From the NCBI RefSeq assembly GCF_029266855.1, contig NZ_JAQSWB010000008.1, positions 1 through 64,000 of the forward strand: 64,000 bases of DNA, given 5' to 3'. The stretch comes from Fluviicola sp. (GTDB lineage: Bacteria; Bacteroidota; Bacteroidia; Flavobacteriales_D; Crocinitomicaceae). The notes beneath the pieces are model-generated. The model was not told the origin of the DNA and searched no databases. It saw nothing but the letters and a program-made list of their open reading frames with translations. Shown here in pieces: positions 1 through 33,756 of this stretch. The translations under genes were made by a program, and so were the position numbers. Numbering within the stretch: the first letter of the stretch is position 1; each line of letters begins with the position of its first letter.

Positions 1-2053
1 TGCACCACATGTTGCCGGTGTAATTGCACTTTGTGTCAAATTCAAGATTGCCGGTTGAGTAATGGTTTGATTCACTGTTACCGTACAGTTATTTGCATCG
101 CGGATTGTAACAGCATACGTACCGTTACATAAACCTGTAAACGTATTCGAAACCTGGAATGTTCCTCCATTAGCACTATACTGATATGGAGGCACACCTC
201 CAGCAGGAGTAACCGTAATCGTTCCATTACATACTCCATTACAACTGACATTTACAGCTGCTAAAGTCCCACTCAAAGCCGTTGGCTGAGTAATGGAGAC
301 ATTCGCCGTTGCAACACAACCTGAATTGTCAGTCATTGTTATCGTATAAGCTCCTGCTCCTAAGTTCGAAGCGGTCTGAGTGGTTTGTCCACCGGTCCAG
401 GAATAAGTATATGGTGCCAATCCAACCGGTGTTGCCGTAGCAGACCCGGTAACCAATGGTAAAGTTTCCAGTTGTTGTACAACCATTGGCCCCCGTTACT
501 ATGTAATTGTAGTTTCCATCCGGTAAATTGGTGAAATTGGCAGTGGAACCGGCTGTATTTGCTTCGACAACAGAACCATTAACAGGTCCTGCAATACTTA
601 CTGTATATGGTCCTAGTCCTACAGGGTTATTGATAACCACAGAACCGTTATTGTAATTCGCACAGGATTCAGCTGTTGGAGTAACCGTCGGTGCAGTTAA
701 AGCGCCATAATTAACCACCACCTGATCTGTTACAGTAGTTCCACACAAGTCTACAGCAGTCACTGTATAAGTTGTTGTTGCTGCAGGTGAAACCGTCACC
801 GGAGTACCAGTCCCTGCACCATTACTCCACGTGTAAGTTATCGTTCCGGTTCCTCCTACAGATGTAGCAGAAAGAGGCACACTTGATCCGGCAGTACAAA
901 TAGTAACATCCGCATTAGCCGTAACAGCAAGTGGAGTAGCATCAATGATATTTACCGATATACTCCCCGTTGTACATACCGTTGCAGGATAGTTACAAAT
1001 CAAGGTTTCAGTTCCTTCGGCAGCTCCGTCAAGAAATACGTTTACAGGAATACTAACTGAAGTTTGGCCTGCCGGTACAGTAATTGTTGTCGGCAATGCA
1101 CCATAATCAACCCCGGAGGTTGCGCTTCCCGCCCAGGTCACATTGAATGAATAAGGCACTGCAAGCGCATTCGGAATGTTAAATGTCATCGTGTTATTTG
1201 AACAGCCTTCCGGGTAAATACCTGGTCCCGCACCACTTGAGGTAACTGACGAAACAGGTGGATTACCAACTGCAAACAACCCGTTTTGCTGAATGAATAC
1301 CCAAGAATCATAACTTGAATCTCCTCCATCGGCAATCATTAAACGGATATGATATGTTTGACAGGCAATAACTGCTCTTGACGCAGTCAACTGAGTGGTA
1401 TACCCATCCATCACATTATTATTAGGCGTACCTAAAACAATATTATTAACATAAGATCCTGCATTTACACCAGCATTAACATTATCAATCGTAACCGGAA
1501 CTGCTCCAATAACAGCAATATTCTGCGAACCGACAATACCTGGTCCGCTTATAAAAAAAGCAAATGCATCATTGAAACCACTACCAACCCATTCGTTGTA
1601 TTCTTCCGAACCAAAAATGTAATTTACATTGATGTTACTGGTAATGGGAACGAAATCAAACTCCAAAATAATACCATCAAATGTACCTGCTCCTGCAATT
1701 GTATTCAATTCAGCAACAGCAGCACCTGCATTATCATCAGTCTTAAAGGTCCCGGGACCACCCTGAAGTGCGGCGGCAGTGTTCACAAATCCTGTACTCA
1801 TGACAACACCGGTATTCATTGTCGCACCAATTCCTGCGGATGTACCACCTGTGAAATTAGCTATTGCAGCAGCGTCTCCTGTGAGGGTTACATTCGAAAA
1901 GGTAATTCCAGGACCACAAATTGCAGCTACATAGTTTGCAGCTGTAGTTTGACTTAGATTGATCTGGGCGGAAGAAACTTTTGAAAAACCTGTCATAAAT
2001 AAAAGCAACAGTAGAGAGTTACAGATTGCTCTGAAAGAAGTAATCATAGTCAT
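1..2053 (-). CDS. Choice-of-anchor L / SprB-repeat secreted adhesin, partial, frameshifted
   Basis: Secreted surface protein whose 3' end lies beyond the left edge. Residues 1-29 are a signal peptide ending in SSA-Q. Residues about 40-260 resemble the choice-of-anchor L domain, with the hallmark GSEEYNEWVGSGFNDAF stretch near residue 150. A Calx-beta-like domain (275-375) and an Ig-like module (375-450) follow, then SprB-type repeats. The frame opened at 2053 stops at 329, but the SprB-like reading (PYTYSWTGGQTT, then DNSGC) continues in another frame from about position 455 to position 1. One surplus base at 449-458 explains this, either a real mutation or a sequence error. It lies 57 bp downstream of a PorP/SprF gene, so it is probably the third gene of that operon and a T9SS cargo, although the C-terminal sorting domain is not visible. 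A second ATG at 2047 is an alternative start. Confidence 0.82.
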
Positions 2054-14876: not shown

Positions 14877-17078
14877 ATGTTTAAAACAACATTCATTCTA
14901 ACTTGCCTAATATCGATCACTCTTTCCAGTGGATTATCAGCACAAGTAAAAACGGATTTCGATCATTATAAAACACTTGCTTCCACCGGATCAATCCCTG
15001 AAGATTTCAGCATGTCTACTTATGAAAAAGTGGATCGAGATGTAAAAATAGACCGTCCCGAACTGGCTGTTTCATTAAGAAAACGATTCTATACCGGAAT
15101 CCATTCTGCTATTGACGGAATTCTTCAGTCCGAAGTATGTGTATTCGGCGACCCGCTTTCTCTTTATGTAAAAGATATTGCTAAGAATCTTTTAAAAGAT
15201 GACCGTGAGACCTACAAAGAACTGCGGTTTTACACCTTAAAATCAAACGAAACAAACGCCTTCTCTACAGACCAGGGAATCATATTTGTGACAACCGGGC
15301 TGATCTCCCAAGTGAGTTCAGAGGCTCAGCTTGCTTATGTACTTGCCCACGAGATTGCACATTACAAAAGAAAACACGTTTTGGAGCGCTTCAAGCAAAA
15401 GACCGTTTTAAAGAACGCGAACTATTACGAGCTAAGCACTTACAGCAAGGAGCGTGAGCTTGAAGCCGATTCAGATGCTATTGAATTGTACAAAAATGCA
15501 GGATATGAAGAAGCCTTGATCGAGCCAACGTTTGATGTTCTGATGTATTCATACCTTCCCTTTGATGAAGTACGGATTCCAGAAACCTTCTTCAATTCGA
15601 AGGCATTTTACGTACCGGCTTTTAAATTTCCGAAAGAAACATTTGCCATTACAGCCGAAGAAGATTATAACGACAGCAAGAGTTCACACCCCAACATTTC
15701 GAAAAGAAAAAAACAAGTTCTTGAAGTACTTGAAAAAGGAAGCGGCTGGAAAGGAACTGCTAATATCCTGGGAGCAGAACGCTTCAACGAAATGAGAACC
15801 ATCGCACGTTTCGAGTCAGTAAGAAACAGCATTTTGGCATTGGATCTTACAAATGCCTTATACTCTATTTTCATTTTAGAGAAAGAATTTCCGAATTCAC
15901 AGTATTTGACTTCCATGAAGGCTAAAACCTGGTTAGCCCTGGCACAAACGAAATCTGCTTCGGTATCAAAACCATTCGAATCCAAAATTCATAAAGAAGG
16001 AGAAATTGCTTCCCTGCACGCAATGCTTAAGAAAATGGATAAATTAGAACTTTCATCCATTGCTCTTCGCCAGATCTATGATATCCGTGAAGTTAATTCT
16101 TCAGACCCGGAAATCCAGGCTATTTATGACAGAATGGTTGAAACAGCTGCAAACACCAAACAATTTTCGCTGGAATCATTCTCCAAATACGACTATCATC
16201 AAGCCGTACAACGCAACAAAACTTACAATGATTCGATAGCTAAAATCCCTGCAGACAGTCTGACTAAAATCGAAACCAGCAAGACAGAATCCAAATACGA
16301 CAAGATCAAGAAAAAACGATCCGCGGACGGTAATATTGATGCCCAGGTATTTGACTCCACAGCCTATTACTTATATGGAATGACAGACATCATGTCGGAC
16401 AGCAGCTTTGTCAGATCATTCAAATCTGCACACAGTAAATCCCTGAATACAGAAGAAGCCAAGGAAAATAAATCCAAATTGATTCCTGCTATTCCCGACT
16501 TAAAAACGAAAAGTATTGCTCTTGTAGAACCAGATATTGAAATCGCGGAATCATCCAACAAAACGATCAAGGTATCAGAATCGATCAAGAAGAATTCGAC
16601 AGAACTGATCCTCCAGGAAGCAGCAGCGAACGGATATAATATAAGCACCGACAATGCACCCAACAGTCTGAATATTGAAGGAATCAACGCGTTTATGTAT
16701 CTAAAATCAGCCTTGAGACAAAATGAAGGTTACTCCAAAGTGAATTTCTTCCCGATTGACTATACAGAACTTCAAAACATGTCGAAAAAATACAGTTCCG
16801 ATGTGATCATGATCCCACTTGTTTTTTACATCGACAACAAGAAAAGCAACCCGATGGAAATTGCGAGACCTGTTTTGGGTACGTGGTATGTTCCACCAAT
16901 GGCTTTCATTCTACTTACCGGGAAATTACTGGACGCCCAAAAAACTTTCATCAATTTTATCGGTGTCGATTTAAAAAACGGCCATGCAGACTCTTCAGGC
17001 GAATACCTGATTAGCGGAAAACCATCTAAAATTCTATTGGGATCCAAGTACTACGAAATTTTTAAATCAACTAACTAA
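14877..17078 (+). CDS. Secreted M48-family metalloprotease with long C-terminal region
   Basis: Exported zinc metallopeptidase of 733 residues; signal peptide 1-22 (GLSAQ). The catalytic HEIAH lies at residues 158-162 in AYVLAHEIAHYKRKH, and the third zinc ligand is in ERELEADSDAIELYKNAGY (about 195-213), as in M48 (Oma1/BepA/YcaL-like) enzymes. Typical single-domain M48 proteins are 250-300 residues; here about 430 further residues follow. These include a region resembling helical repeats, a Lys/Ser-rich linker (about 470-550) and a C-terminal alpha/beta segment (NGYNISTDNAPNSLN). BepA-like relatives act on outer-membrane protein assembly. The barrel gene 9 bp downstream fits such a role, but that is inference. 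Confidence 0.85.
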   Translation: MFKTTFILTCLISITLSSGLSAQVKTDFDHYKTLASTGSIPEDFSMSTYEKVDRDVKIDRPELAVSLRKRFYTGIHSAIDGILQSEVCVFGDPLSLYVKDIAKNLLKDDRETYKELRFYTLKSNETNAFSTDQGIIFVTTGLISQVSSEAQLAYVLAHEIAHYKRKHVLERFKQKTVLKNANYYELSTYSKERELEADSDAIELYKNAGYEEALIEPTFDVLMYSYLPFDEVRIPETFFNSKAFYVPAFKFPKETFAITAEEDYNDSKSSHPNISKRKKQVLEVLEKGSGWKGTANILGAERFNEMRTIARFESVRNSILALDLTNALYSIFILEKEFPNSQYLTSMKAKTWLALAQTKSASVSKPFESKIHKEGEIASLHAMLKKMDKLELSSIALRQIYDIREVNSSDPEIQAIYDRMVETAANTKQFSLESFSKYDYHQAVQRNKTYNDSIAKIPADSLTKIETSKTESKYDKIKKKRSADGNIDAQVFDSTAYYLYGMTDIMSDSSFVRSFKSAHSKSLNTEEAKENKSKLIPAIPDLKTKSIALVEPDIEIAESSNKTIKVSESIKKNSTELILQEAAANGYNISTDNAPNSLNIEGINAFMYLKSALRQNEGYSKVNFFPIDYTELQNMSKKYSSDVIMIPLVFYIDNKKSNPMEIARPVLGTWYVPPMAFILLTGKLLDAQKTFINFIGVDLKNGHADSSGEYLISGKPSKILLGSKYYEIFKSTN

Positions 17079-19166: not shown

Positions 19167-19315
19167 GGGGGTTCCTGACCAAAGCTTTCTTTTTCACTTT
19201 TTATTCCATAAATTAGCCCTCCAATGATTTGAAAGACAAATCCTATTACTACAATTGAGGTATTGCAGGTTTGAGATATATTTTAATCCTTTGCATATCA
19301 GCTACAAGAATAAAA

Positions 19316-22300
19316 ATGAAGTGTTTTCTCCTTCTTATTACCGCTTATTTTTTGCTCAACCCGGTGTTGTATGCTCAATGTAATGCAAATGCCGGGCCTG
19401 ATTCAACGGTTTGTATCGGTGCTTCGATTCAATTAGGAGGAACTCCGGCGGGAAGTGGTCCCGGAACCCTATCCTACTCCTGGGCACCTGCGACCGGGCT
19501 TTCATGCACTACTTGCCCCAATCCTATATTTACAGCAGGTACAAGTCAAACATACACACTCACGGTCAGTTCTACTTCAGGATGTACGGATGACAATACG
19601 GTAAGTATTACAGTTGCCTCTCCGCCCACCGCCGCTTTTAACATTACAGGAAATAACAATTGTTCCAATATTCCTATCCAATTCACAAATACCTCATCGG
19701 GAAGCGGGCTCACTTACTCCTGGAATTTCGGAGATCCCGGTTCCGGTGCACAAAACACCAGCAATCTTATTAACCCGGTTCATCAATACAATGCCGTAGG
19801 ATCAGGGACACAAACGTATAATGTTACACTGACGGTTACCAACTCAAGCGGATGTACGGCAAGTATCAGTCAAACAGTAACAGTCAATGCACTTCCAAAT
19901 CCGGCGTTGATTGACCCGGTTGCCGGAATGCGGAATTGTGACGGCTCCAACTTCGCAATGACCGTTTTCGATGCTTCCTCTACGACACAGATCTCCAATT
20001 ATACCATTCAATGGGGCGATGGTTCCCCTGACTTCAATTCAAACAGCTTTCCCGGTGCCGGAGTTTCACATAACTATACTACGGCCGAAATTTTCACATT
20101 GAATTATACAGTAACAGGTAATAATGGCTGTGTTCAATCAATTGCTTATAATATTGCCAACATTACTAATCCCGCGATCGGAGCAGCCAACCCAGGAGCG
20201 ACAACGGGGTGCGGGCCAATCACACTTTGCTTTCCCCTTAATAATTATTCTTCCAATCACAACACCACTTTTTATGTTGTTAATTACGGAGACGGTTCAC
20301 CTACTGATACTTTGCCGCATCCACCTCCTGCAACTGTCTGCCACACTTATACTACTTCATCCTGCGGGCAAGCCGGAAATCAGTTTGTGTTCAGGATCAA
20401 AGCCATCAACTTATGCGACAGCAGTGAGGCTTCCATTTCACCAATTCGGGTTTATACCGGGCCCGTAGCAAATTTCAACGTTGCAGCGCCTAATAATTGC
20501 GTGGGATCTCCCGTCCTGTTTTTAAATAGCAGCCAGAGTGGATTTAACAGTGCCTGCAGCTCCAGCACCCTCTTTCAATGGAATTTCGGAGACGGTCAAA
20601 CGCTGACCACTGCTACCGCGACCAATCCGACACATGTTTATTCTGCCCCGGGAACGTATACCGTTACACTCACGGCCACAAACAATTGCAGTTCAAATGT
20701 GATTACCCGGACAGTTTGCATCGAGAATCCGCCGACACCTTCGTTTACCGTCATTCCAACATCGGCTTGTATTCCATTTATAGCGCAGGTAAGCGATGCT
20801 TCGAACCTGGCAAACACCTGTAATGTGACCAGAGTCTGGACTGTTCTTTTCAACGGAAGTCCCTGCCTGCCTTCGTCCGGAGCATTTTCATTTACCGGAG
20901 GAACAAACGCTTCATCCGTAAATCCACAAATCCAGTTTACCCAACCGGGAAATTATACCATTCGTTTAACACTTACCAATTCATGCGGTTCCTTTATAGC
21001 AAACCAGGCCGTTGTTGCCCAGGCACCACCCCAGGTAAGCATCAATGCAGTGCCAAGTGTGTGTGCAGGATTAAGTGTGAGCCCTGCGGCAGTTGTCAAT
21101 GATTGCCTTGAGCCATCCGACATTTATGCATGGACATTTACAGGAGCTACCCCTGCAAATGCAACAACTCTTATTCCGGGTTCGATTACGTATCCTGCAG
21201 CCGGAACTTTTCCTATTTCACTGGCCGTAACCAACGCCTGCGGAACGACGACCGCAAACACTTCAGTAGTTATCAGACCTATACCTCCGGTGCTTAATCC
21301 GCAGGTAAACAGTCCGGTATGTGCAGGCAGTACAGCCAACTTCACTTCCGATGCATCTCCTTCCACCACTTATTCCTGGTCTGGTCCTAATTCATTCACA
21401 AGTAACCAACAAAACTTCAATTTAACGAATGTCACAGCGGCCCAAGCAGGAACGTATACTTTATTCGGAACAATGGCAGGCTGTACAGGCCCCAGTTCGT
21501 CCGTAACATTAGTCGTAAACCCTATTCCCGTTATCACCGTCACCCCACCAAATGCAACTATCTGCAACGGTCAGTCTGTTTCCTTAACGGCTTCCGGAGC
21601 AAGCACTTATACCTGGAGTCCGGCCACAGGATTGTCGGCAACTAATACAGCTACCGTAACAGCAAATCCAACAGCTACTCAAACATATACCATTACAGGA
21701 TCTGACGGAGCATGTTCCGGTTCTACCACAGCAGTTATAACGGTAAATCCCTTGCCTGTTGTTAATGCCGGTCCAAATGTCACGCTATGTAATCAAGCAA
21801 TTCCATTTACACTAAGTCCAAGTCCGACAGGAGGAAGCTGGACCGGAATGCATGTTACTCCGGGTGGGATTTTCACACCGAACGGTACCGGGACCTTCCC
21901 TTTGGTTTATTCATTTACCAATGGAAATGGTTGTACTAATACAGACACACTCATAGTAACAGTTGTTGATCCAACAGCTGCATCTGCAGGCCCGGATTCG
22001 ACTACTTGTTTCGGTTCCCCAGCGATCGTTCTAAGCGGTACTCCAAGCGGGGGAGCGTGGACAGGAACGAACATTACCGCAGCAGGAGTATTTACACCCA
22101 ATACGGTCGGAACCCACTCATTGGTTTACACTTTCGGAACCGGGACCTGTTTATCAAGAGACACGATGCTCATGACGGTGAATCCATTACCGATTGTCGA
22201 CGCGGGAACGAACTTTGCCTTATGTATCGATGCCGGAATTCAGACACTCAACGGAACACCTTCGGGCGGAACCTGGAGTGGAACGGGAATTACAAACCCG

Positions 22301-25300
22301 ACGGGAGAATTTACTCCTTCCGTTGCAGGAGCAGGAAATAAAACACTTACTTATTCTTTTACAAACGGAAATGGCTGTACGGCATCCGACAATCTTGTTA
22401 TAACTGTAAATCCCTTACCGCTTGTAAATGCGGGACCGGATACTACGGCATGTGATCAGCCCAATCCGTTTCAATTAAGTTTTTCTCCGACAGGCGGAAC
22501 ATGGACCGGTTTAAACGTGAGCTCAACAGGACAATTTACACCAAACGGAACAGGAGTATTTACCTTAACTTACACTTTCACCAATGCGAACGGCTGTACA
22601 GCCAGTGATACACGGACCGTAACGATTATAAGTCCGACACAACCGGATGCAGGACCGGATTTCGATGTATGTATCGATGCTCCTAATGTCACTTTGGGTG
22701 CTACTCCTGCGGGTGGAACCTGGACAGGTTCATTCACAACATCCGGTGGAATCTTCAACCCCACAGTTGCCGGAAGTTTCAATTTGGTTTATACTTTGGG
22801 ATCAGGAGCCTGTTTGTTGCGCGATACCTTGGTTGCATTGGTAAATCCACTACCCCTTGTCAATGCCGGAACGGATTTCGCTATTTGTATTGATGCCGGA
22901 GTTCAAACTATCAGCGGAACACCTCCGGGAGGAACCTGGTCCGGAACCGGAATAACGAATCCGACAGGAGAATTCACTCCTTCCGTGGCAGGAACAGGAA
23001 ACAAAACACTTACTTATTCCTTTACAGATGCAAACGGGTGTACAGCTTCAGACATTCTTATCATTACGGTAAATCCCTTACCGGTCGTGAATGCAGGAAA
23101 TGACACTACTTTGTGTAATCAGCCGTTTCCTGTCCAGTTTACTGCAACTCCTCCGGGAGGTAGCTGGAGCGGCACAGGAATTACACCTACCGGTACTTTT
23201 ACTCCCGCCGTTACAGGAACTTTTAACCTGGTCTATACATTCACCAACGGAAATAGCTGCACCAATTCAGATACGCGGATTGTAACGGTTGTTAATCCGG
23301 CAATAGCAAATGCAGGACCCGACCTGGAAGCATGTATCGATGCTCCTAATATTCAACTAAGCGGAAGCCCTGCAAGCGGAACCTGGACCGGAAGTTTTGT
23401 CAATTCAAGCGGATTATTCAATCCAAGCATTGCAGGAACTTTCCCATTAGTTATTTCAAACGGTTCAGGAAACTGTCTGACCCGGGACACCATGCTATTT
23501 ACTGTTCACCCACTGCCAATTGTAAGCGTTGGGGCAAATGAAGATTTTTGTCCGAGTGATGCCCCGGTTACATTTTCAGGAAGTCCGGCGAATGGTGTCT
23601 GGAGCGGAAATGGAATTACCGATGCAGCTTTGGGAACATTTGATCCCGGAATAGCGCCAGTAGGAACACACACGATCATTTATACATTTACCAATCCTGT
23701 GACCGGATGTATTAACCGCGACACATTATTGGCAATGGTTCATCCAATGCCTACTGCAAATTTCACTTACAATCCGATCACCTGTATCGGCACTAACGAA
23801 GCTTTTACAAATACCAGTACACTTGCAAACCAGAGCAATTGGGATTTCGGTGACGGGACACTTATTTCCGCTGTCAGCCCGGGACATGCTTACAGTACTG
23901 CCGGTTTTTATGATATCGAATTGCATGTAAGTACTTCCTTCGGATGCCTGGATTCCATTACCCAGCAAATCGAGGTTCGGACTCCTCCGGTGGCAGATTT
24001 CACCTTACTACCCGACTCCGCTTGCGGACCAATGACAGTTACTTTCACAGACCAGTCTTCGGGACAAAGCTTAAGTTATAACTGGAACTACGGTAACGGT
24101 CAAACAAGTACCAACCCGGTTCCTGTTTCACAGACTTACCAGGCAAGCAATGTAACTGACACCTCCTATACCATTACCCTGAACCTAACAAATTTTTGCG
24201 GTACAAGCAGCCATTCCGAACAAATTACGGTGATGCCATCACCTACTGCTGTTTTCGGAACATTAAGCAATATAGGCTGTACGCCGCTTGTCCTGGACAT
24301 GGTGAATAACAGTTATGGAATGCCCGACGTCTATGAATGGAATTTTGGAGACGGAACGACCTCTGATACATCCGGAGCGACGCTTCAACATACTTTTTAT
24401 ACCGGCACAGAAGACACAACTTATACCATCCAACTTGTTGTAATCAACGAATGCGGATCAGATACCATCCAACACCAGGTAACTGTACTCCCACCGCAGG
24501 TAAATGCATTTTTCAATATTGACAATCCTTCCGGTTGTGTTCCCCATACGATCAACCTGAGTCAGTTTTCGCAGGGAGCCAGCTTTTCTTCCTGGGATTT
24601 TGGAGATGGCAACATTTCAAGCGCTTATAATCCATCCCACACATTTACAAGTGCAGGAACCTATGTCGTTTCGCTTTTTGCGGCCGGCTGTGGATTTGAT
24701 ACTGCCACAACCATTGTTACTGTTCATCCATTGCCGCAAATTGATTTTACTTCCCTGGATTCTGTTTGCGTGAACCAGGGCTTCACATTTACCAACCTGA
24801 GCAGCGGAATTGCTTCCATAAACTGGGATTTCGGTGACGGAACGACTTCTACATTGACGAATCCCAGCCACAGTTATTCCAGTGCAGGATCATACACCGT
24901 CACTTTATCCGGGATCAGTCAAACTTATGGCTGTACGACCCAAATAACAAAAACCATTCAGGCAAATCCTGCGCCTAACTCCCAATTTACTCTCGGTCCG
25001 AATAACGGCTGCGTGGATCTGACAGTTCAAATGACGAATAACAGCGTTGGCATTACAAACCAGGTGTGGGATTTCGGTGACGGAAACTCTTCTATTCAGA
25101 ACAGTCCAAATCATACATTTACTACCCCGGGTTCTTATGCCGTACAATTGATTGTTCTGGACAATATCGGCTGTGCAGACACTTCTTTTCAAGTGGTCAC
25201 TGTATATCCCTTACCGGTCGTTGATTTCACGTTTACGGTCGTCGATCCGTGTGTGCAGCCAACAGTTGTGAACTTTACAAACAACAGCAGCAACGCAGTG

Positions 25301-26272
25301 GGTTATACCTGGAGTTTCGGTAACGGGCTTTCTTCCGTACTCACTAATCCAAGTACTACTTACCAGCAAGCCGGAGATTATACCGTTTCCCTTGTCGGAA
25401 CTACCATTCACGGTTGTGTGGACAGTATCCAAAAAACAATTTCCTCCTACCAAATGGCAAGTGCCTCTTTTGTTTTACCAACGGACTCCATTTGTGTGGG
25501 AGAAGAACTACAGATCCAGGTTAATTCGCAATTTGCCAATTCCATTTCCTGGTCGATGGGTAACGGAACGGTTCTTACAGGAAACACTATAACTTACAGT
25601 TACAATGCAAGCGGTACATACAACCTTGTAGTCATAGCATATGGAAACGGCGGATGCAATGACACCCTTGCTTCCAATGGCACAATTACCGTATTGCCTC
25701 AGCCAACAGCTGATTTCAGTTATGCCAACATTGAAGGTACCGAACCATTGAGCGGGATTGTAGCATTTACGAACCTGAGCAGTTTAGCAGATTATTATTC
25801 CTGGGATCTTGGAAACGGAAGTTTCTCTTCCGAAGAACATCCGACAGAACGGTACGAGCAGGATGGTGAGTTCCAGGTTACACTTATTGCCACAACGATC
25901 TACGGCTGTGTCGACACCCTTGTAAAAACCATTACGGTAGACTTCTTTTACGGTTTATATATTCCAAATGCAATGAGTCCGGGACACACCGATTTCGAGG
26001 TGGCGAATTTCATTCCGAAAGGTGTCGGTTTAAAGGAATTCGAGTTATTGATCTATGATGACTGGGGAAATCTGATCTGGTCCACTACGGCATTGGATGC
26101 CGACGGAAGACCGACGGAGCATTGGGACGGAACATACCGCGGTGAGCCCGTTCAACAGGACGCATATGTATGGAAAGCAAGTGCAACTTTCGAAAATGCA
26201 GATGTCTGGGAAGGAAAAGAGTACCCGAAAGGAAGGATCAAACGGTCCGGAACAGTAACCGTAATACGATAA
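19316..26272 (+). CDS. Giant PKD/Ig-like repeat adhesin with gliding-motility (CHU_C) C-terminal domain
   Basis: Secreted surface protein of 2318 residues from the ATG at 19316 (MKCFLLLITAYFLL signal peptide); the frame extends upstream only to a TTG at 19271. The N-terminal about 800 residues hold Ig-like and PKD modules (WNFGDGQTLTTA). Nine modules of about 73 residues then form three successive near-identical 221-residue super-units (nucleotides 21752-23746). About nine further PKD domains follow (WDFGDGTTS, WDFGDGNSS and variants). The last about 100 residues are a CHU_C/type B sorting domain (FELLIYDDWGNLIWST, HWDGTYRGEPVQQDAYVWKA). PKD arrays in Bacteroidota mediate adhesion or form stalks of gliding adhesins such as SprB. 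The next gene, a PorP/SprF barrel, begins 3 bp downstream and is its probable secretion partner. Confidence 0.92.
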   Translation: MKCFLLLITAYFLLNPVLYAQCNANAGPDSTVCIGASIQLGGTPAGSGPGTLSYSWAPATGLSCTTCPNPIFTAGTSQTYTLTVSSTSGCTDDNTVSITVASPPTAAFNITGNNNCSNIPIQFTNTSSGSGLTYSWNFGDPGSGAQNTSNLINPVHQYNAVGSGTQTYNVTLTVTNSSGCTASISQTVTVNALPNPALIDPVAGMRNCDGSNFAMTVFDASSTTQISNYTIQWGDGSPDFNSNSFPGAGVSHNYTTAEIFTLNYTVTGNNGCVQSIAYNIANITNPAIGAANPGATTGCGPITLCFPLNNYSSNHNTTFYVVNYGDGSPTDTLPHPPPATVCHTYTTSSCGQAGNQFVFRIKAINLCDSSEASISPIRVYTGPVANFNVAAPNNCVGSPVLFLNSSQSGFNSACSSSTLFQWNFGDGQTLTTATATNPTHVYSAPGTYTVTLTATNNCSSNVITRTVCIENPPTPSFTVIPTSACIPFIAQVSDASNLANTCNVTRVWTVLFNGSPCLPSSGAFSFTGGTNASSVNPQIQFTQPGNYTIRLTLTNSCGSFIANQAVVAQAPPQVSINAVPSVCAGLSVSPAAVVNDCLEPSDIYAWTFTGATPANATTLIPGSITYPAAGTFPISLAVTNACGTTTANTSVVIRPIPPVLNPQVNSPVCAGSTANFTSDASPSTTYSWSGPNSFTSNQQNFNLTNVTAAQAGTYTLFGTMAGCTGPSSSVTLVVNPIPVITVTPPNATICNGQSVSLTASGASTYTWSPATGLSATNTATVTANPTATQTYTITGSDGACSGSTTAVITVNPLPVVNAGPNVTLCNQAIPFTLSPSPTGGSWTGMHVTPGGIFTPNGTGTFPLVYSFTNGNGCTNTDTLIVTVVDPTAASAGPDSTTCFGSPAIVLSGTPSGGAWTGTNITAAGVFTPNTVGTHSLVYTFGTGTCLSRDTMLMTVNPLPIVDAGTNFALCIDAGIQTLNGTPSGGTWSGTGITNPTGEFTPSVAGAGNKTLTYSFTNGNGCTASDNLVITVNPLPLVNAGPDTTACDQPNPFQLSFSPTGGTWTGLNVSSTGQFTPNGTGVFTLTYTFTNANGCTASDTRTVTIISPTQPDAGPDFDVCIDAPNVTLGATPAGGTWTGSFTTSGGIFNPTVAGSFNLVYTLGSGACLLRDTLVALVNPLPLVNAGTDFAICIDAGVQTISGTPPGGTWSGTGITNPTGEFTPSVAGTGNKTLTYSFTDANGCTASDILIITVNPLPVVNAGNDTTLCNQPFPVQFTATPPGGSWSGTGITPTGTFTPAVTGTFNLVYTFTNGNSCTNSDTRIVTVVNPAIANAGPDLEACIDAPNIQLSGSPASGTWTGSFVNSSGLFNPSIAGTFPLVISNGSGNCLTRDTMLFTVHPLPIVSVGANEDFCPSDAPVTFSGSPANGVWSGNGITDAALGTFDPGIAPVGTHTIIYTFTNPVTGCINRDTLLAMVHPMPTANFTYNPITCIGTNEAFTNTSTLANQSNWDFGDGTLISAVSPGHAYSTAGFYDIELHVSTSFGCLDSITQQIEVRTPPVADFTLLPDSACGPMTVTFTDQSSGQSLSYNWNYGNGQTSTNPVPVSQTYQASNVTDTSYTITLNLTNFCGTSSHSEQITVMPSPTAVFGTLSNIGCTPLVLDMVNNSYGMPDVYEWNFGDGTTSDTSGATLQHTFYTGTEDTTYTIQLVVINECGSDTIQHQVTVLPPQVNAFFNIDNPSGCVPHTINLSQFSQGASFSSWDFGDGNISSAYNPSHTFTSAGTYVVSLFAAGCGFDTATTIVTVHPLPQIDFTSLDSVCVNQGFTFTNLSSGIASINWDFGDGTTSTLTNPSHSYSSAGSYTVTLSGISQTYGCTTQITKTIQANPAPNSQFTLGPNNGCVDLTVQMTNNSVGITNQVWDFGDGNSSIQNSPNHTFTTPGSYAVQLIVLDNIGCADTSFQVVTVYPLPVVDFTFTVVDPCVQPTVVNFTNNSSNAVGYTWSFGNGLSSVLTNPSTTYQQAGDYTVSLVGTTIHGCVDSIQKTISSYQMASASFVLPTDSICVGEELQIQVNSQFANSISWSMGNGTVLTGNTITYSYNASGTYNLVVIAYGNGGCNDTLASNGTITVLPQPTADFSYANIEGTEPLSGIVAFTNLSSLADYYSWDLGNGSFSSEEHPTERYEQDGEFQVTLIATTIYGCVDTLVKTITVDFFYGLYIPNAMSPGHTDFEVANFIPKGVGLKEFELLIYDDWGNLIWSTTALDADGRPTEHWDGTYRGEPVQQDAYVWKASATFENADVWEGKEYPKGRIKRSGTVTVIR
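21752..23746 (+). repeat. Three 221-residue super-repeats, each of three modules
   Basis: Super-units begin near 21752, 22414 and 23077, about 662-669 bp each. Each has module A (VNAGPDxTxCNQ to NGNGCTxSDT), module B (AGPDxxxCIDAPN to CLxRDT) and module C (GTNFAICIDAG, SGTGITNPTGEFTPSVAG). Module C of the third unit is diverged. The similarity is stronger in protein than in DNA. Confidence 0.8.
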
Positions 26273-26275
26273 GTT

Positions 26276-27325
26276 ATGAGAGCGCTACTTTTATTCATAT
26301 CATTTATTGCTGCTGTGGGAAATACTTACTCGCAAGACCCCAACTTTTCCCAGTTTTACAATAACCCCATTTATTACAATCCTTCCATGACTGCCGTGAA
26401 TAACGGAATTGCCATTCGTTTGAATGCGCGTTCCTTATGGGGACCGATCCCAGGGAGATTTAACACCTTTTCCTTCTCAGCCGAAGCACAGACGATGTAC
26501 AAGATGGGACTTGGAATTATGGCCTATTCCGATGTAGGTGGCGAAGCACTTCTAAGAACTGCCGGAGGTTATATCAACTACTCATACAGACCCGTCGATA
26601 CCAAGAACTTTATTCTGCAGGCCGGAGTAAGCGGTGGATTTGTGACGAAAAATATTGACTGGTCGAAATTGACTTTCTCCGACCAGTTGGATGAGACGAT
26701 GGGAAAAATCAAGGAGAGTAATTTCAACCGACCGGGATACAACAGCGTTTCTTATGCTGATTTCAGTGCCGGGCTAGTAGCCCGATTCAATGGCTCTACC
26801 CGTAAACAAAGCAGTTCGTTTAAACGATTCAACGCCACCCTTGGCGGTGCAATCCATCATTTGTCGCAACCAAAAGATGCTTTCCTGGCAGATGGAGACA
26901 AATTACCGTTTAAATTAGTCTTTCATGCCTCATCCAACTTATTGTTCCATGAATTCGTGGTTTCCCCGGGAGCCGTTTTCGAAATGCAGAATGAATTCAG
27001 GACTTTCAGTATCGGTAGTAATTTTATCAATCAACCCTTCATTATCGGGATTTGGTTCAGAAACAGAACCGCTGCGTTGAGCTTCAAGCAATATGATTCG
27101 TTTATTTTCACACTTGGATTGAATATGCGAACGAAATACGAAAGTATCTGGCGTGTGACTTATAATTTTGACATGACAATTTCCCGTTTGAAGACCAGCA
27201 GTTATGGAAGTCATGAACTTTCCCTCTTATTTGAGATTCCGAACAAGGTGTTGTTTTCCAAGAATGTGAACAGCAAAAATGCACGGAGAAGATACCAGTG
27301 CCCGAAGGAGTTTAGCGGATTCTGA
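26276..27325 (+). CDS. PorP/SprF family T9SS outer-membrane protein
   Basis: Beta-barrel of 349 residues, normal for the family, without the SPOR tail of the relative at 2111. The signal peptide (1-20, NTYSQD) is followed by the family start NFSQFYNNPIYYNPSMTAVNNG and regular amphipathic strands. PorP/SprF proteins assist secretion or anchoring of the type-B-CTD protein encoded next to them. The ATG is 3 bp after the stop of the giant adhesin, so translation is probably coupled. After it comes an AT-rich inverted repeat (27329-27418) shared with the response-regulator gene on the other strand. The two PorP/SprF proteins in this window are clearly diverged, consistent with each serving its own cargo. 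Confidence 0.9.
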   Translation: MRALLLFISFIAAVGNTYSQDPNFSQFYNNPIYYNPSMTAVNNGIAIRLNARSLWGPIPGRFNTFSFSAEAQTMYKMGLGIMAYSDVGGEALLRTAGGYINYSYRPVDTKNFILQAGVSGGFVTKNIDWSKLTFSDQLDETMGKIKESNFNRPGYNSVSYADFSAGLVARFNGSTRKQSSSFKRFNATLGGAIHHLSQPKDAFLADGDKLPFKLVFHASSNLLFHEFVVSPGAVFEMQNEFRTFSIGSNFINQPFIIGIWFRNRTAALSFKQYDSFIFTLGLNMRTKYESIWRVTYNFDMTISRLKTSSYGSHELSLLFEIPNKVLFSKNVNSKNARRRYQCPKEFSGF

Positions 27326-28111: not shown

Positions 28112-30007
28112 TTACGCAATTGTGCTATTTTTCTTCCATTTCAGGAACAAGATCATCCCGGTATGATCAGCACTTTTCCGGATAGAGTAAACCGCATTGA
28201 TTTTTTCGGCACGCTGCTCAATACTTTTTAAGCCATAGTGAAATTCGGGTTTTACCTCCGGATCGAAGCCAACACCAAAATCTTCAACGTACAATTCCAG
28301 GTAGTCGCCAGCCTCTTTCAAAGTTATTTCTACCTTCTCAGCTTTCGAATGCTTGTAAATGTTACTGATTCCTTCCTGAAAAATACGCATAACATGCAGA
28401 GAAACCCCAGGATCCAATCCGGTATTCAGTGACTCGCTATTTTCCATTTGAAGGTTAAATTTAACTTTTATGGAATTGTCTTCCAGCCATTTTTTTGCCA
28501 CGTTCTTCATCCGGCTCACTAAAACCTTCGAGGACATGTTTTCCGAGTGCAGTGCCCAAACCGTATCACGAAGTGAACTCATTGCCTCCTGGCTCATTAA
28601 AAAAGTGCGATTAATGCGTTCATTTTCTTTTTCATTGTGAGAAAGTAATTCCAGATTATTTACTACGAAACTCAGCTGCGATCCAACCAAATCGTGCAGA
28701 TCATAAGAAATCCGTTTGCGTTCTTCATTCGTTGCCTGAAACACCTGTTGCTGTGTGATCAATTCTTTTTTCAATGCGCGTCTTACGAAATAAAAGATCA
28801 AAGTGATCACGGTCAAAAACAAAAAAGCGACCAGAACGATCCAATAAGTATTTTCCAATTTCCGGCTCAATTGCTGTTCGCGCAATTCCGCATCCTTCTT
28901 TTTCCGGTAAAGTTCCGAGCGTTGTTTTTCTGATTTTATATCGTAAATAGCATTTGTTCTCGCGATCGTTTGATCCCGGAGTTCTCTGTAATATTTTCCA
29001 TGATAGATTTCATATTTTGTCCAGAAATCCTGTGCTTTTTTATTTTCTTTCCGATCCAGATAAATCAAACCGAGTGCTTTGGAAATTTTATACAATTGTT
29101 CGTTTGCCTGAAGTTTTTCTGCGAGGGGTAAGATTTCCAGCAGCAATTTCTCTTCCTGGACCTGATTTCCCTGATCCTTATAAACTCTTGCCCAATTAAG
29201 CAGAGTACTCAGATACAGGTATTCGTTACCAATTTCTTTGGCTAGGCGTGCGCCTTCGCTGTATGCTTCCTCAGACTCCTTGTATCTTTTAAGATCAGCC
29301 AAGATCATGGCCTTATTACACAAAATGATCCCCAAACCATATTTATTGGATGTTTTCCGGTATCCACTAATTGCCAATTCGGAGTAGTACATGCTGGAAT
29401 CTCTTTTTTCCAACATATTGAAAGCCGTAGCCATATTCGAATAAGCATCAAAAACCTGTGCTTTATCTTTCCCACGATGATAGGATGCAATGCTCTTCCG
29501 GTACCAAAACAAAGACGTCTGCGCTAAATTCAACTCCTGATAGAGCAAACCTAAATTATTCTGGGTTGCCCCCACACTTACGTAGTCGTCCATTTTCTCA
29601 AAGTACAATTTCGCTTTATGGAATGATTGAATTGCCCGTTTTAAATCGTTTTTATGCCAATAGATCAGTCCCAGGTTGTTCTGGCAGGAAGCAACTCCTT
29701 TGAAATAATCGATCCGTTTTGCAATGGCAAGTGCTTTTTGGTAATTGGCAATGGAGAGTTCTGTTTGCGAGAGCACATCATATGCAATTCCTATCCGGAT
29801 GTAGGCCCTGAGTTCACCGATGTAAAATTCACACTCGTTCGCCTGAACCGCTATTTTTTTGCATTCACTAATGGCCGCCTTCGGATCTTCATAGCACAGA
29901 TCCAGCACCTTATCGTTGCGCAGGTTTATGGCATTGGTATCGCATTGAGAATACCCCTTAAAAGAAGAAAGGTTCAGGAGTAAAGTAAGTAGCAGCAGTC
30001 GTTTCAT
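28112..30007 (-). CDS. TPR-repeat sensor histidine kinase (HisKA_3 type)
   Basis: Membrane sensor kinase of 631 residues from the ATG at 30007, which gives a signal peptide (MKRLLLLTLLLNLSSFKGYSQ); the frame is open further upstream into the previous gene. Periplasmic TPR array (about 40-370, repeats such as ASCQNNLGLIYWHKNDLKRAIQSFHKA), a coiled segment, a single TM helix near 400 (WIVLVAFLFLTVITLIFYFV), then the NarX/DegS-type dimerisation motif RKRISYDLHDLVGSQL with the phospho-accepting His. The HATPase domain has an N-box (GISNIYKHSKAE) and G box (VEDFGVGF). It sits 17 bp after the propeller gene and 36 bp before the cognate LuxR-type regulator. Confidence 0.92.
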   Translation of the reverse strand: MKRLLLLTLLLNLSSFKGYSQCDTNAINLRNDKVLDLCYEDPKAAISECKKIAVQANECEFYIGELRAYIRIGIAYDVLSQTELSIANYQKALAIAKRIDYFKGVASCQNNLGLIYWHKNDLKRAIQSFHKAKLYFEKMDDYVSVGATQNNLGLLYQELNLAQTSLFWYRKSIASYHRGKDKAQVFDAYSNMATAFNMLEKRDSSMYYSELAISGYRKTSNKYGLGIILCNKAMILADLKRYKESEEAYSEGARLAKEIGNEYLYLSTLLNWARVYKDQGNQVQEEKLLLEILPLAEKLQANEQLYKISKALGLIYLDRKENKKAQDFWTKYEIYHGKYYRELRDQTIARTNAIYDIKSEKQRSELYRKKKDAELREQQLSRKLENTYWIVLVAFLFLTVITLIFYFVRRALKKELITQQQVFQATNEERKRISYDLHDLVGSQLSFVVNNLELLSHNEKENERINRTFLMSQEAMSSLRDTVWALHSENMSSKVLVSRMKNVAKKWLEDNSIKVKFNLQMENSESLNTGLDPGVSLHVMRIFQEGISNIYKHSKAEKVEITLKEAGDYLELYVEDFGVGFDPEVKPEFHYGLKSIEQRAEKINAVYSIRKSADHTGMILFLKWKKNSTIA

Positions 30008-30024
30008 CCAATTGTTTTTTTTTA

Positions 30025-32166
30025 TTACTTGAGTTCCATTTTTTTGAGTCGCTTTCTCCGCTTGATATAGAGCAGTCCGAAGAACCCCACAAATATACCG
30101 GCAATGAACCAAACCAAGGTATCTTCATACCAGGAAGCTTTTATTTTAAAAGTTGTATTCACCGGTTCTGAAAAGCGTCCTGTTCCGGGATCAAAAAGTC
30201 TTAGTTCCAGGCTATAAGATCCGGAATTCAAATGCTCAAACGTCAATTTTGTTAAGCCCAACGAAGTGTTTGACCAATGGATCTGGTCTTTTTCATCGTT
30301 CCTAATAAGCCGGTACTGCAATTCATACGGGTGATTCCCCATTAATTCAACCAATTCGTAGGGGATATTTACTTCCGTATTTTCTGCTTCAAATTTGTTC
30401 GAGTTCTCTTTCTGATGATCTCCGCTTGGTTTTCCTAAAATAAAGGTCGGGAAATCCGTTTTCACCTTTTCCCATTTAAATTCGAAAAGGCCGAACTGTG
30501 TTGCAACGTAAACCTTATTATCCAGCACTACAAAATCCCGGAGAAACAAATCATTTAACCCGGAAAGTTCTTCCAGCCGTTCCAGGTTTCCATTCAATTT
30601 TTTGGTGCGATAGAGGGTTTTGTCCGAAAGAATGTAAAACTGGTCATTGTAAATTTTCAACTTCGAAACCAAGAGGTTACTGCCATTCTCACGAAAGTTT
30701 ACTTCGTGGATTACTTTCCCGTTCCTGATCGTAAAAATCTTATTTGCAGAACTGAGAACATACCATTTATGTTTGTGAAACAAGATCTGTGAAGGATCAA
30801 TATTCTCGTTAAAATAACGAATAGAATGGTATTCCAATGTATTGAGGTCCAATGTAAACAATCCGTCCAGGTTTGAAAATAAGACCTCAGTGGTATCAGC
30901 TTGTTCGAAAAGTTTTACCGGACTTTCCAGGATTACTTTCCGGGCAGATCCTTTTACCAGCTTTTCACGTAATTCCTTGCTGTTTTTTGCATCCAGGGTG
31001 AATAATCCTTTTGAGGTTACAAGCAGGTAATTCCCGGTATTCAGGGGAACTATTTTTTTCAGGAATTCATCCGCCAAAAAAACAGGCATTACAACCTTAT
31101 TAACTATCAGATTCTGCGGCTTAAGCTCATTCTTTTGAACAGCATTCCTTACTTTCCTGCCAAACTTATTTAAAACGATGAGTTCCGCAGCATTGGTTCT
31201 CGCAATGATTTCACCCTTGATCAGATCCAAAGAGTTGAATTCGACTGAATTCAGTAATTTGTATGAACCTGCAGGTATACAATACAATCCCTTTGATTTG
31301 GTACCAAGCCAAATATTTCCGTTCCGATCCTTGAAAACAGCAGTCACGTGTAATCCCACGATAATTGACTTCACGCGCATATCCCCGGCTTTCAGAACAA
31401 TCATTCCCGTTTCGGAAAGGAGGTATATTTTTTCATCAATCCGCACCACCTTTTGAATGGAATGGTTAAAAGCCCCCACTAGTTTGTTTAAGTTTTTGAA
31501 TCGTTTGTTGGAATATTGGAGTGAAATATTGGAATTCGGTCTTGCAGGAAATAGGATCAATTTGTTTTTTTCTCCCATCAGCCACCTTCCCGTCATTCCC
31601 GGAAGGGTTCTCGAAGCCTGGTCATTGATATCGACTAATTCATTATTTGACATTAAAGCAAAGCGTCCCTTATCGTTTTCACTGTAATCAATTAATTCCG
31701 ATCTTCCTTTCTCGTAAAATGGAATATTGGTCTTGGAAAGCAATGAAATCGGATTTACTTTGTACACATAAACGGCATCCGGACAAAGGATCTGCAAGTT
31801 TCCCTCCTGATTCTTTTCCAGGCGCAGGATCTGACTTTTAAGAGCCGGCAAAGTGATCAAAACGACCTCCTCCCCTTTTATTTCAAATAACTGCCCGGTT
31901 TTGTTCAAACCAAAGAATTTATTTTTCAGTTTCAGCAGCTGGATGATATCTTTGGAGTATAATTTTGATGAAGCAATTTGCTTCGACTGAAATCCGTTGA
32001 AGCTGAAAACACCTTTATCTGTACCAAGTATCAAACGCCCAAATGCATCCTGTTCGATCGCCGTGATGTGGTGATCTCTCAAAGAAGTCTGTACCGGATA
32101 ATAGTAAGGTCTTGTTTGAGCAAAAATAAGCGTTGTAAAGAGTAGAAAGATTGGTACTAATTTCAT
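30025..32166 (-). CDS. Two-component-type beta-propeller/Y_Y_Y sensor protein lacking a kinase domain
   Basis: Predicted inner-membrane protein of 713 residues whose bulk is periplasmic. Signal peptide (1-16, LIFAQ), then regulator-propeller repeats (IEQDAFGRLILGTDKGVFSFNG, KDRNGNIWLGTKSKGLYCIP). A Y_Y_Y-like Ig domain follows (about 600-680, YELQYRLIRNDEKDQIHWSNTS, KLTFEHLNSGSYSLELR), then one TM helix (LVWFIAGIFVGFFGLLYI) and a short basic tail ending KKMELK. In many Bacteroidota sensors this arrangement continues into HisKA/HATPase domains; here the protein stops right after the membrane. The kinase is encoded 17 bp downstream as a separate TPR protein. I infer a split receptor in which this protein senses ligand and the TPR kinase signals. 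Confidence 0.85.
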   Translation of the reverse strand: MKLVPIFLLFTTLIFAQTRPYYYPVQTSLRDHHITAIEQDAFGRLILGTDKGVFSFNGFQSKQIASSKLYSKDIIQLLKLKNKFFGLNKTGQLFEIKGEEVVLITLPALKSQILRLEKNQEGNLQILCPDAVYVYKVNPISLLSKTNIPFYEKGRSELIDYSENDKGRFALMSNNELVDINDQASRTLPGMTGRWLMGEKNKLILFPARPNSNISLQYSNKRFKNLNKLVGAFNHSIQKVVRIDEKIYLLSETGMIVLKAGDMRVKSIIVGLHVTAVFKDRNGNIWLGTKSKGLYCIPAGSYKLLNSVEFNSLDLIKGEIIARTNAAELIVLNKFGRKVRNAVQKNELKPQNLIVNKVVMPVFLADEFLKKIVPLNTGNYLLVTSKGLFTLDAKNSKELREKLVKGSARKVILESPVKLFEQADTTEVLFSNLDGLFTLDLNTLEYHSIRYFNENIDPSQILFHKHKWYVLSSANKIFTIRNGKVIHEVNFRENGSNLLVSKLKIYNDQFYILSDKTLYRTKKLNGNLERLEELSGLNDLFLRDFVVLDNKVYVATQFGLFEFKWEKVKTDFPTFILGKPSGDHQKENSNKFEAENTEVNIPYELVELMGNHPYELQYRLIRNDEKDQIHWSNTSLGLTKLTFEHLNSGSYSLELRLFDPGTGRFSEPVNTTFKIKASWYEDTLVWFIAGIFVGFFGLLYIKRRKRLKKMELK

Positions 32167-32220: not shown

Positions 32221-32937
32221 TTATTTCCCTTTTGTTTTTCCGGTTCTCATTTCCGTTTCAAACCATTGCCACAACTTATCATCAGGCACTGGCGCCGTTA
32301 CTTTCACCGGTTCTTTGGATGTCGGATGTTCAAATTCCAATTCTCTCGAATGCAAATAAATGGAACCATCCGGATTGGAGCGTTTGGCACCGTATTTCAG
32401 ATCGCCTTTAATGATACAGCCGATGGCAGACAATTGCGCCCGGATCTGGTGATGTCTACCGGTTTCCAATTCCACTTCCAGTAAGGTATAATTGTCGGAA
32501 CTCAGTAATAAGCGGTATTTCAATCTTGCTTCTTTCGAATTTTTACGTGCTTCGCTGTAAGCGTAAGTCTTGTTTTGCTTTTCGTTCCGTTCCAAATGAT
32601 GGATCAGCGAACCCGATTTTTCCTTCGGTGCTTTTTCCACCACTGCCCAATAGATTTTCCGCGGATGTTTTTCTGCAAAAAGTTTATTCATACGGGTCAG
32701 GGCCTTACTTGTACGGGCAAAAACAATTCCGCCCGAAACCGGTCGGTCCAAACGATGGATCAAGCCACAAAAAACGTTCCCAGGCTTTTCAAATTTATGA
32801 CGGATGTATTCGCGTACTTTTTCTACCAGGGGAAAATCACCGGAAATATCTCCCTGCACATTTTCGCCTGCGTGTTTATTGACCACAATCAGGTGGTTGT
32901 CTTCATACAAAACATCTTCCGGACGGATTTGTTCCAT
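32221..32937 (-). CDS. RluA-family RNA pseudouridine synthase
   Basis: Cytosolic enzyme of 238 residues that isomerises uridine to pseudouridine in rRNA or tRNA. The catalytic motif HRLDRPVSGG is at residues 61-70 (Asp64). It also has the conserved ETGRHHQIRAQLS and GDLKYGAKR segments. There is no N-terminal S4 domain, so it is a short RluA/RluC/D-like form. The target position cannot be assigned from sequence. It starts 3 bp after the panB stop, so the two form an operon, a neighbour arrangement that is probably only transcriptional. Confidence 0.9.
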   Translation of the reverse strand: MEQIRPEDVLYEDNHLIVVNKHAGENVQGDISGDFPLVEKVREYIRHKFEKPGNVFCGLIHRLDRPVSGGIVFARTSKALTRMNKLFAEKHPRKIYWAVVEKAPKEKSGSLIHHLERNEKQNKTYAYSEARKNSKEARLKYRLLLSSDNYTLLEVELETGRHHQIRAQLSAIGCIIKGDLKYGAKRSNPDGSIYLHSRELEFEHPTSKEPVKVTAPVPDDKLWQWFETEMRTGKTKGK

Positions 32938-32940
32938 GAA

Positions 32941-33756
32941 TCAGTATTGTTCGTTTTGGTTCGGAAAATCTCCGCTTCTTACGTCCTTGATATAGTTTTG
33001 AAATGCTTCCAGCATGACATCATACAGGTTTGCATACTTACGCAGGAAGCGCGGAGAGAACTCATTGTTAATTCCAAGCATGTCGTGAACAACCAATACC
33101 TGGCCGTCTACCCCATTTCCTGCCCCGATTCCAATAATGGGAATAGAAACAGATTTTGCTACCTGTTCTGCCAGTGCCGCAGGAATCTTTTCCAAAACAA
33201 TTGCAAAACATCCGGCTTCTTCCAAGGCTTTCGCATCTTCCACCAGGCGCTGTGCCTCTGCTTCTTCTTTTGCACGAACTACGTAGGTACCAAATTTATA
33301 AATGGATTGCGGAGTCAGGCCTAAATGTCCCATAACAGGAATTCCGGCTGTCAAAATACGCTTAATCGATTCAATGATTTCAATTCCTCCTTCCAGTTTC
33401 ACACCGTGTCCACCTGATTCTTTCATAATACGGATGGCATTTGACAATGCTTCTTTGGAATTTCCCTGGTAGGAACCGAATGGCATATCCACTACAACCA
33501 AAGCTCTTTCGACTGCACGAACTACGGATCCGGCGTGGTAAATCATCTGATCCAGGGTAATCGGAAGAGTGGTTTCATGTCCGGCCATGACATTGGAAGC
33601 GGAATCGCCTACTAAAATGATATCAATCCCGGCAGTATCAATGATTCTTGCCATGGAAAAATCATAACCGGTAAGCATGGAGATTTTCGCTCCGGAATTT
33701 TTCATTTCTTGTAAAACGTTTGTTGTAACGCGTTTTACATTTTTGTGCACAGACAT
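32941..33756 (-). CDS. panB: 3-methyl-2-oxobutanoate hydroxymethyltransferase (PanB)
   Basis: First committed enzyme of pantothenate synthesis, transferring a hydroxymethyl group from 5,10-methylene-tetrahydrofolate to 2-oxoisovalerate. 271 residues, typical length. Family motifs are [25 protein letters not shown] (Mg-binding Asp), [23 protein letters not shown] and the C-terminal [20 protein letters not shown]. No panC or panD is in view. First gene of the panB-rluA pair. A perfect TAACTTTG promoter box lies 20 bp upstream and a word repeat covers the -33 region. Confidence 0.97.

Follow-up and report, generated by a model that had tools for sequence, protein, structure and literature searches.

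A propeller protein without an output domain beside a TPR histidine kinase in Fluviicola: probably not an obligate pair

Propeller/Y_Y_Y sensors are important readers of the environment in Bacteroidota, and in nearly all of those examined here the output is part of the same polypeptide. What, then, is the role of a propeller protein whose chain stops just past its membrane helix and which is followed by a separate histidine kinase? The question is raised by a locus of Fluviicola sp. (assembly GCF_029266855.1, contig NZ_JAQSWB010000008.1, positions 1 to 64,000; this whole stretch of 64,000 nucleotides is referred to as the window), in which the gene for the propeller protein P0001 precedes those for a TPR-HisKA_3 kinase, P0002, and a NarL/LuxR-type response regulator, P0003. 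A previous reading, made from the sequence only, held that sensor and kinase must interact. That claim is not supported, and receptor and kinase are probably not an obligate pair, as three of the 12 genomes with the propeller lack kinase and regulator, and the propeller is full-length and apparently under purifying selection there. The reading favoured here, with a probability of roughly 0.4, is that of two separable modules, a propeller with a role of its own and an optional TPR kinase/regulator that would be coupled to the propeller where present. The locus is a real, narrow variant among propeller sensors; the observation is confirmed, and its interpretation is partly supported.

The distribution of the three genes was surveyed across 14 Fluviicola genomes, including the present one (G000), with a threshold of E <= 1e-20 for propeller orthologues. 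Twelve genomes hold such an orthologue, in none of them fused, and 11 of the 12 have a full-length open frame; in G199, whose assembly is fragmented and 83% complete, the propeller is split over two frames at a place where four bases are ambiguous. The view of P0001 as a truncated gene or pseudogene with fused relatives was therefore rejected in favour of a genuine unfused gene, and ten other full-length orthologues likewise terminate just past the membrane helix. Kinase orthologues (39-100% identity) were found in nine genomes and regulator orthologues (65-100% identity) in eight, the contig of G199 stopping within the kinase and leaving the regulator out of view; the two are present or missing as a pair. 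Propeller and kinase occupy one site in all nine kinase-bearing genomes and are directly adjacent in G000, G124, G200, G203, G052 and G106, with gaps of 17, 18, 11, 10, 10 and 7 base pairs (bp) among the six. The order propeller-kinase-regulator, kept in five further close genomes, is more than chance, and the order propeller-kinase is kept across a deep split (27% propeller identity). No kinase without a propeller was found among the 14 genomes. Both are missing from G094, where other genes follow panB-rluA, and from G201, where the contig ends right after panB.

Three genomes, G139, G127 and G085, retain the propeller only, as an intact protein of 710-715 amino acids (aa). In whole-genome searches, the three have an orthologue of neither kinase nor regulator: the kinase finds a match at E 1.5e-26 at best and the regulator one of 47% identity at most, where either matches at all. 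The G127 assembly is a single contig. Beside their propeller genes, tblastn found no remnants of kinase or regulator and blastn gave just chance matches of 10-14 bases; the distance from propeller stop to PorP stop is ~50 bp in G139 and ~190 bp in G127. In G085, the genes for PorP and for the 2333-aa PKD protein are gone as well. The topology within the group was taken from a nucleotide tree of panB, rluA, a recF-like gene and the propeller itself, in which G127 and G085 join (100% bootstrap) with kinase-bearing G106 as their sister (100%), and G139 groups with the kinase-bearing G200, G203 and G052 (99%). A protein tree of three flank genes joins G127 and G085 again (98%), with weaker support elsewhere, and the outgroup G109/G202 forms a very long branch of inconsistent attachment. 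Because kinase-bearing lineages separate G139 from G127 and G085, at least two events lie behind the difference. Propeller and kinase both occur in the divergent G109, G202 and G199 too, which makes loss of the kinase-regulator pair on two or more occasions the simplest history.

Selection on the propeller was gauged by the ratio of nonsynonymous to synonymous rates (dN/dS) by the method of Nei and Gojobori (NG86). The ratio is 0.069 for the kinase-less pair G127-G085, 0.04-0.086 for five computable kinase-bearing pairs, and 0.04-0.095 over all 15 pairs, out of 36, that gave a value. These values support purifying selection on the propeller in kinase-less genomes and, since this selection persists where the kinase is gone, a role that the propeller has by itself. 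If, instead, the propeller were a dedicated ligand-binding subunit of the kinase with no other role, this would explain why the two genes lie so close together in six genomes and why membrane helix and tail are conserved where the kinase is present; yet retention of the propeller without kinase and regulator in three genomes, at a dN/dS of ~0.07, leaves such an obligate split receptor strongly disfavoured and very improbable.

The domain content agrees in most parts with the sequence-only reading. Its propeller label stood, with Reg_prop (PF07494) at 30.6 bits over a cut-off of 20.4, while its Y_Y_Y label did not find the same footing, as a Pfam profile search of P0001 gave no Y_Y_Y match (PF07495) at E <= 0.1; a Y_Y_Y-like domain is suggested by fold alignments to BT3049, BT4673 and BT4663, which run to residue 677. 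An AlphaFold2 model of P0001, built from an 11-row genus alignment, is of moderate confidence (pLDDT 70, pTM 0.49) and includes a long helix at 679-712. In a Foldseek search of the model against the PDB, the top 15 matches are all ectodomains of hybrid two-component system (HTCS) sensors (BT4673, BT3049, BT4663; E 5e-23 to 2.5e-19), with TM-scores of just 0.27-0.44 over the whole chain and 11-12% sequence identity. VIA-align aligned three of these ectodomains from about residue 20 to 677, with many unrelated propellers level at Z 18-20 on one propeller domain. By Foldseek, the overall fold of P0001 is that of an HTCS-type ectodomain, and the chain holds no output domain; the intact 713-aa frame stops ~11 residues after the membrane helix, as had been read, with the basic tail KRRKRLKKMELK. 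Between the two ectodomain halves, residues 321-370 (window 31057-31206) are hypervariable, with 33-50% identity in a protein that is 67-81% identical.

For the two downstream genes, open reading frame (ORF) coordinates and Pfam bear out the earlier description of a short spacer, a TPR-membrane helix-HisKA_3 kinase and a LuxR regulator. P0002 has TPR_12, HisKA_3 and HATPase_c, all over the Pfam cut-off, with a membrane helix between, and is classed as a TPR-HisKA_3 sensor kinase. Its model (pLDDT 82) shows a TPR solenoid, one continuous helix at 322-458 and a kinase core, and among PDB structures Foldseek places TPR domains of partner-bound LGN at the top, with DesK lower down. A longer P0002 ORF from TTG 30112 was rejected because alignments with relatives begin at the position of the ATG. 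P0003, with Response_reg (69.6 bits) and GerE (70.5 bits) both over cut-off, is a NarL/LuxR response regulator; it starts 36 bp past the P0002 stop, outside the interval 28112-32166 that the sequence-only reading covered. On the minus strand, the order of transcription is PanB, RluA-type synthase, P0001, P0002 and P0003, followed by the convergent genes for a PorP/SprF-family protein and the PKD protein, which has a CHU_C-like end below cut-off (Table 1). The PanB and RluA-type synthase genes are the conserved flank by which the site was located in other genomes.

Table 1 Features of the locus and other propeller genes of the same genome
Feature	Position	Strand	Remarks
Output-less propeller protein P0001	30025..32166	(-)	713 aa; hydrophobic N-terminus; ORF, Pfam, fold model
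P0001 signal peptide	residues ~1-16		by eye
P0001 propeller ectodomain	residues ~18-575		
P0001 Y_Y_Y-like domain	residues ~576-677		by fold only
P0001 membrane helix	residues ~680-702		
P0001 cytoplasmic tail	residues ~703-713		
Spacer, propeller stop to kinase ATG	30008..30024	(-)	17 bp
Sensor histidine kinase P0002	28112..30007	(-)	631 aa; ATG 30007, stop 28112; signal peptide, periplasmic TPR solenoid, membrane helix (residues ~387-410), HisKA_3 with HDLVG H-box, HATPase_c
NarL/LuxR-type response regulator P0003	27422..28075	(-)	217 aa; receiver and GerE
RluA-type pseudouridine synthase	32221-32937	(-)	upstream of P0001, co-directional
PanB	32941-33756	(-)	upstream of RluA-type synthase, co-directional
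Convergent flank	19271..27325	(+)	2333-aa PKD-repeat protein and PorP/SprF-family protein
Propeller + His_kinase fusions (nine)			L093, L094, L098, L099, L100, L101 (two), L102, L107
Propeller + HisKA_3 fusion			L092
Propeller + nucleotide cyclase fusion			L097
PorZ-like propeller gene			L089; 94.8 bits
Propeller without membrane helix by hydropathy			L090; 357 aa

How might the two modules work together? The first would be a periplasmic propeller protein anchored in the inner membrane, in effect the ectodomain of an HTCS-like sensor with no output domain; it would have a role of its own, may bind a ligand as BT4663 does and may dimerise likewise. The second, the TPR-HisKA_3 kinase with its LuxR-type regulator, would be an attachment found in most species. 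Lacking an output domain, the propeller could signal through a partner only; in genomes that have the kinase, this would be the obvious candidate. TPR solenoids are a typical protein-binding fold. Where both modules are present, the solenoid would most likely read the propeller, or its ligand state, by contact in the periplasm or between membrane helices, and the kinase would then phosphorylate the regulator; contact between propeller and kinase is possible. Within the genus, dependence would seem to run one way, the kinase being found only with the propeller and the propeller being independent of the kinase. It could further be speculated that an HTCS-type ectodomain became a free-standing membrane subunit used by the TPR kinase for ligand sensing, and that the kinase half was dropped at least twice in the genus, leaving a receptor with a second, kinase-independent role; this fuller history is rather unlikely.

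A signal of coupling was sought in the propeller membrane helix and tail (residues 678-713), whose divergence, as a mean ratio to the rest of the protein, is 0.20-0.62 in kinase-bearing genomes and 1.27 and 0.87 in the kinase-less G139 and G085; match coordinates were used for the G200, G203, G052 and G106 orthologues, which are 1-3 residues short in this alignment. G139 and G085, of separate lineages (L052, L055), share the tail changes RKR->RKH, E->Q and D->E. Several results weigh against the reading as two coupled modules. In G127, which has no kinase either, membrane helix and tail match the consensus (ratio 0.19), and the association of helix and tail with kinase loss is not significant, as 7 of 84 label permutations, with phylogeny ignored, reach the observed value. 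The signal is not specific either, because propeller residues 486-521 show an equally large excess in kinase-less genomes (2.41-fold, versus ~2.35-fold for 678-713). The G052 kinase has diverged in its TPR part (54% identity) and membrane helix (50%), with no matching change in the G052 propeller. Spacing is looser in the more divergent genomes, with 295 bp between propeller and kinase in G109, 958 bp in G202, where two small reverse ORFs intervene, and a 342-aa ORF between the two in G199. That the kinase occurs only with the propeller is a pattern tested weakly, as just two genomes of the genus are without a propeller. The related kinases of G228 and G234, outside the genus (35-36% identity), have no P0001 relative adjoining. 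Finally, the dN/dS values are rough, as synonymous sites are close to saturated or past that point (dS 1.98 for G127-G085) and 21 of the 36 pairs gave no value.

Some of these results would be expected if propeller and kinase were mere neighbours, the propeller being an independent periplasmic or envelope protein, the TPR kinase sensing its own ligand, as described for FimS of Porphyromonas gingivalis, and the operon arising from joint expression or from an accidental order of genes at a variable rluA-porP site. The propeller outlives the loss of kinase and regulator, the tail signal is neither significant nor unique, and the G052 kinase changed unmatched. Moreover, TPR-HisKA_3 kinases occur elsewhere, and tblastn found no P0001 relative beside L095 and L096 of this genome or L059 and L060 of genus g6; together with the description of FimS as sensing by its own periplasmic TPR domain (PMC11053733), these kinases also argue against an interaction that must take place. 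Neighbours of the L059/L060 kinases include S46 and M48 peptidases; in G234 (L060:3802-6788), the TPR kinase comes after an M48-peptidase-like gene, whose window homologue (14877-17078) lies ~11 kb from P0002. Other genes also enter the site, for example in G202 (L057:4557-6357), where rluA and the propeller are separated by a kinase of the His_kinase family and a response regulator of the LytTR type. However, chance neighbours would hardly be expected to keep their order across the deep split, to share the propeller site in nine of nine kinase-bearing genus genomes, or to lie 7-18 bp apart in six, and this account, although nearly as probable as the favoured reading, stays tentative. In a scan with a promoter motif in the genomes tried, no full match was found upstream of kinase or regulator, and one was found before the G109 propeller.

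The G202 kinase beside the propeller also bears on the idea of a promiscuous receptor, which would serve different kinases across species and be read by another kinase in kinase-less genomes. Two of the three kinase-less genomes indeed have more distant P0002 matches, such as a TPR kinase with regulator at C19 of G139. Yet no candidate is common to G139, G127 and G085, and G085 has no P0002 match at E <= 1e-15 in a survey of P0002-like kinases only, which makes such promiscuity improbable. The two-module reading, with coupling where the kinase is present, is favoured by a narrow margin.

The claim that propeller sensors are usually fused to their kinase is supported in this genome, where ten other propeller proteins carry a fused kinase and one a fused cyclase (Table 1). 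P0001 is the sole examined propeller protein of the genome with a membrane helix and nothing after it. Beyond the examined set, Reg_prop matches weakly at three places, in L091 (20.3 bits alone) and, with 13 bits, in two frames that are 548 and 1421 aa long. The cyclase fusion (L097:3070-6978, on C5 of G000) is a 1302-aa propeller/Y_Y_Y/membrane protein with an adenylate/guanylate cyclase domain (156.7 bits), that is, a receptor-cyclase layout; frames of ~1300 aa, known by length alone, recur among the Y_Y_Y matches of the order. Against 395 genomes of the phylum, a profile of 11 propeller orthologues matched its own genome only at E <= 1e-15, with at most two candidates scored per genome and misses possible. 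In 199 genomes of the order, with five candidates scored each, a propeller search gave a match in 26; outside the genus, the matches are frames of 882-1151 aa that look fused by length alone, with one exception, G183, where a 421-aa propeller ORF is followed by a SpoIIE ORF. A Y_Y_Y search matched 95 of 120 genomes of the order; the matches listed are no census, and P0001-like proteins, which Y_Y_Y does not match, would be missed. Ten frames under 900 aa among the matches listed all have an output domain (SpoIIE in four, LytTR in three, His_kinase in two and HisKA_2 in one), either in the ORF itself or, at L127, where the Y_Y_Y ORF is broken at an ambiguous base, in the next ORF. The LytTR fusions (L129:1853-4465, L130:3090-5651 and L133:1191-3773) are propeller/Y_Y_Y proteins of 853-870 aa and membrane-bound regulators, and SpoIIE phosphatase fusions with propeller/Y_Y_Y were seen at L126, L131 and L135.

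An output-less propeller beside an ordinary TPR kinase, together with cultured kinase-less species as natural knock-outs, makes both a separate-subunit role of such ectodomains and the binding partners of TPR kinases directly testable; if propeller and kinase do not interact, operon adjacency is misleading here. Among the open-access papers listed in literature searches, no title or start of an abstract describes a propeller sensor that lacks an output and is paired with a TPR kinase, which is weak evidence of novelty. How, then, does the locus compare with known systems? PorZ, as described in PMC5121618, resembles P0001 in having two propellers and an all-beta C-terminal domain. However, the latter is a C-terminal domain of the type IX secretion system (T9SS) kind, whereas P0001 terminates in a membrane helix; P0001 as PorZ was rejected, since it reaches 20.5 bits against a cut-off of 27 for the PorZ N-propeller, has no sorting-domain match, and a separate PorZ-like gene is present (L089). 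The Bacteroides HTCS sensors BT4663, BT4673 and BT3049 are like P0001 in their ectodomain fold (to residue 677) and in the membrane helix that follows it, and differ in that P0001 has no kinase, receiver or DNA-binding part past the helix. BT4663 is described as binding disaccharides on both propellers and dimerising (PMC5121618), and its signalling is reported as a scissor-like movement in PMC8534201, where accessory proteins that control kinases are also described. P0002 and P0003 are similar to FimS/FimR of P. gingivalis, which comprise a periplasmic TPR sensor, membrane helix, histidine kinase and cognate response regulator; the passages on this pair in PMC11053733 mention no propeller partner. 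Unlike FimS, P0002 scores 52.3 bits against the 600 of the NCBIfam FimS equivalog cut-off, and it also stays below that of UhpB (57.4 versus 408 bits). UhpC is transporter-like, an integral membrane component with no propeller, unlike P0001. In the Uhp system as outlined in PMC4790336, UhpC is a separate membrane protein that detects the signal and activates the kinase UhpB, which then phosphorylates UhpA. With its separate membrane receptor, kinase and regulator, UhpC-UhpB-UhpA may serve as an analogy for how this locus could work, with control of P0002 by the propeller receptor as the predicted counterpart.

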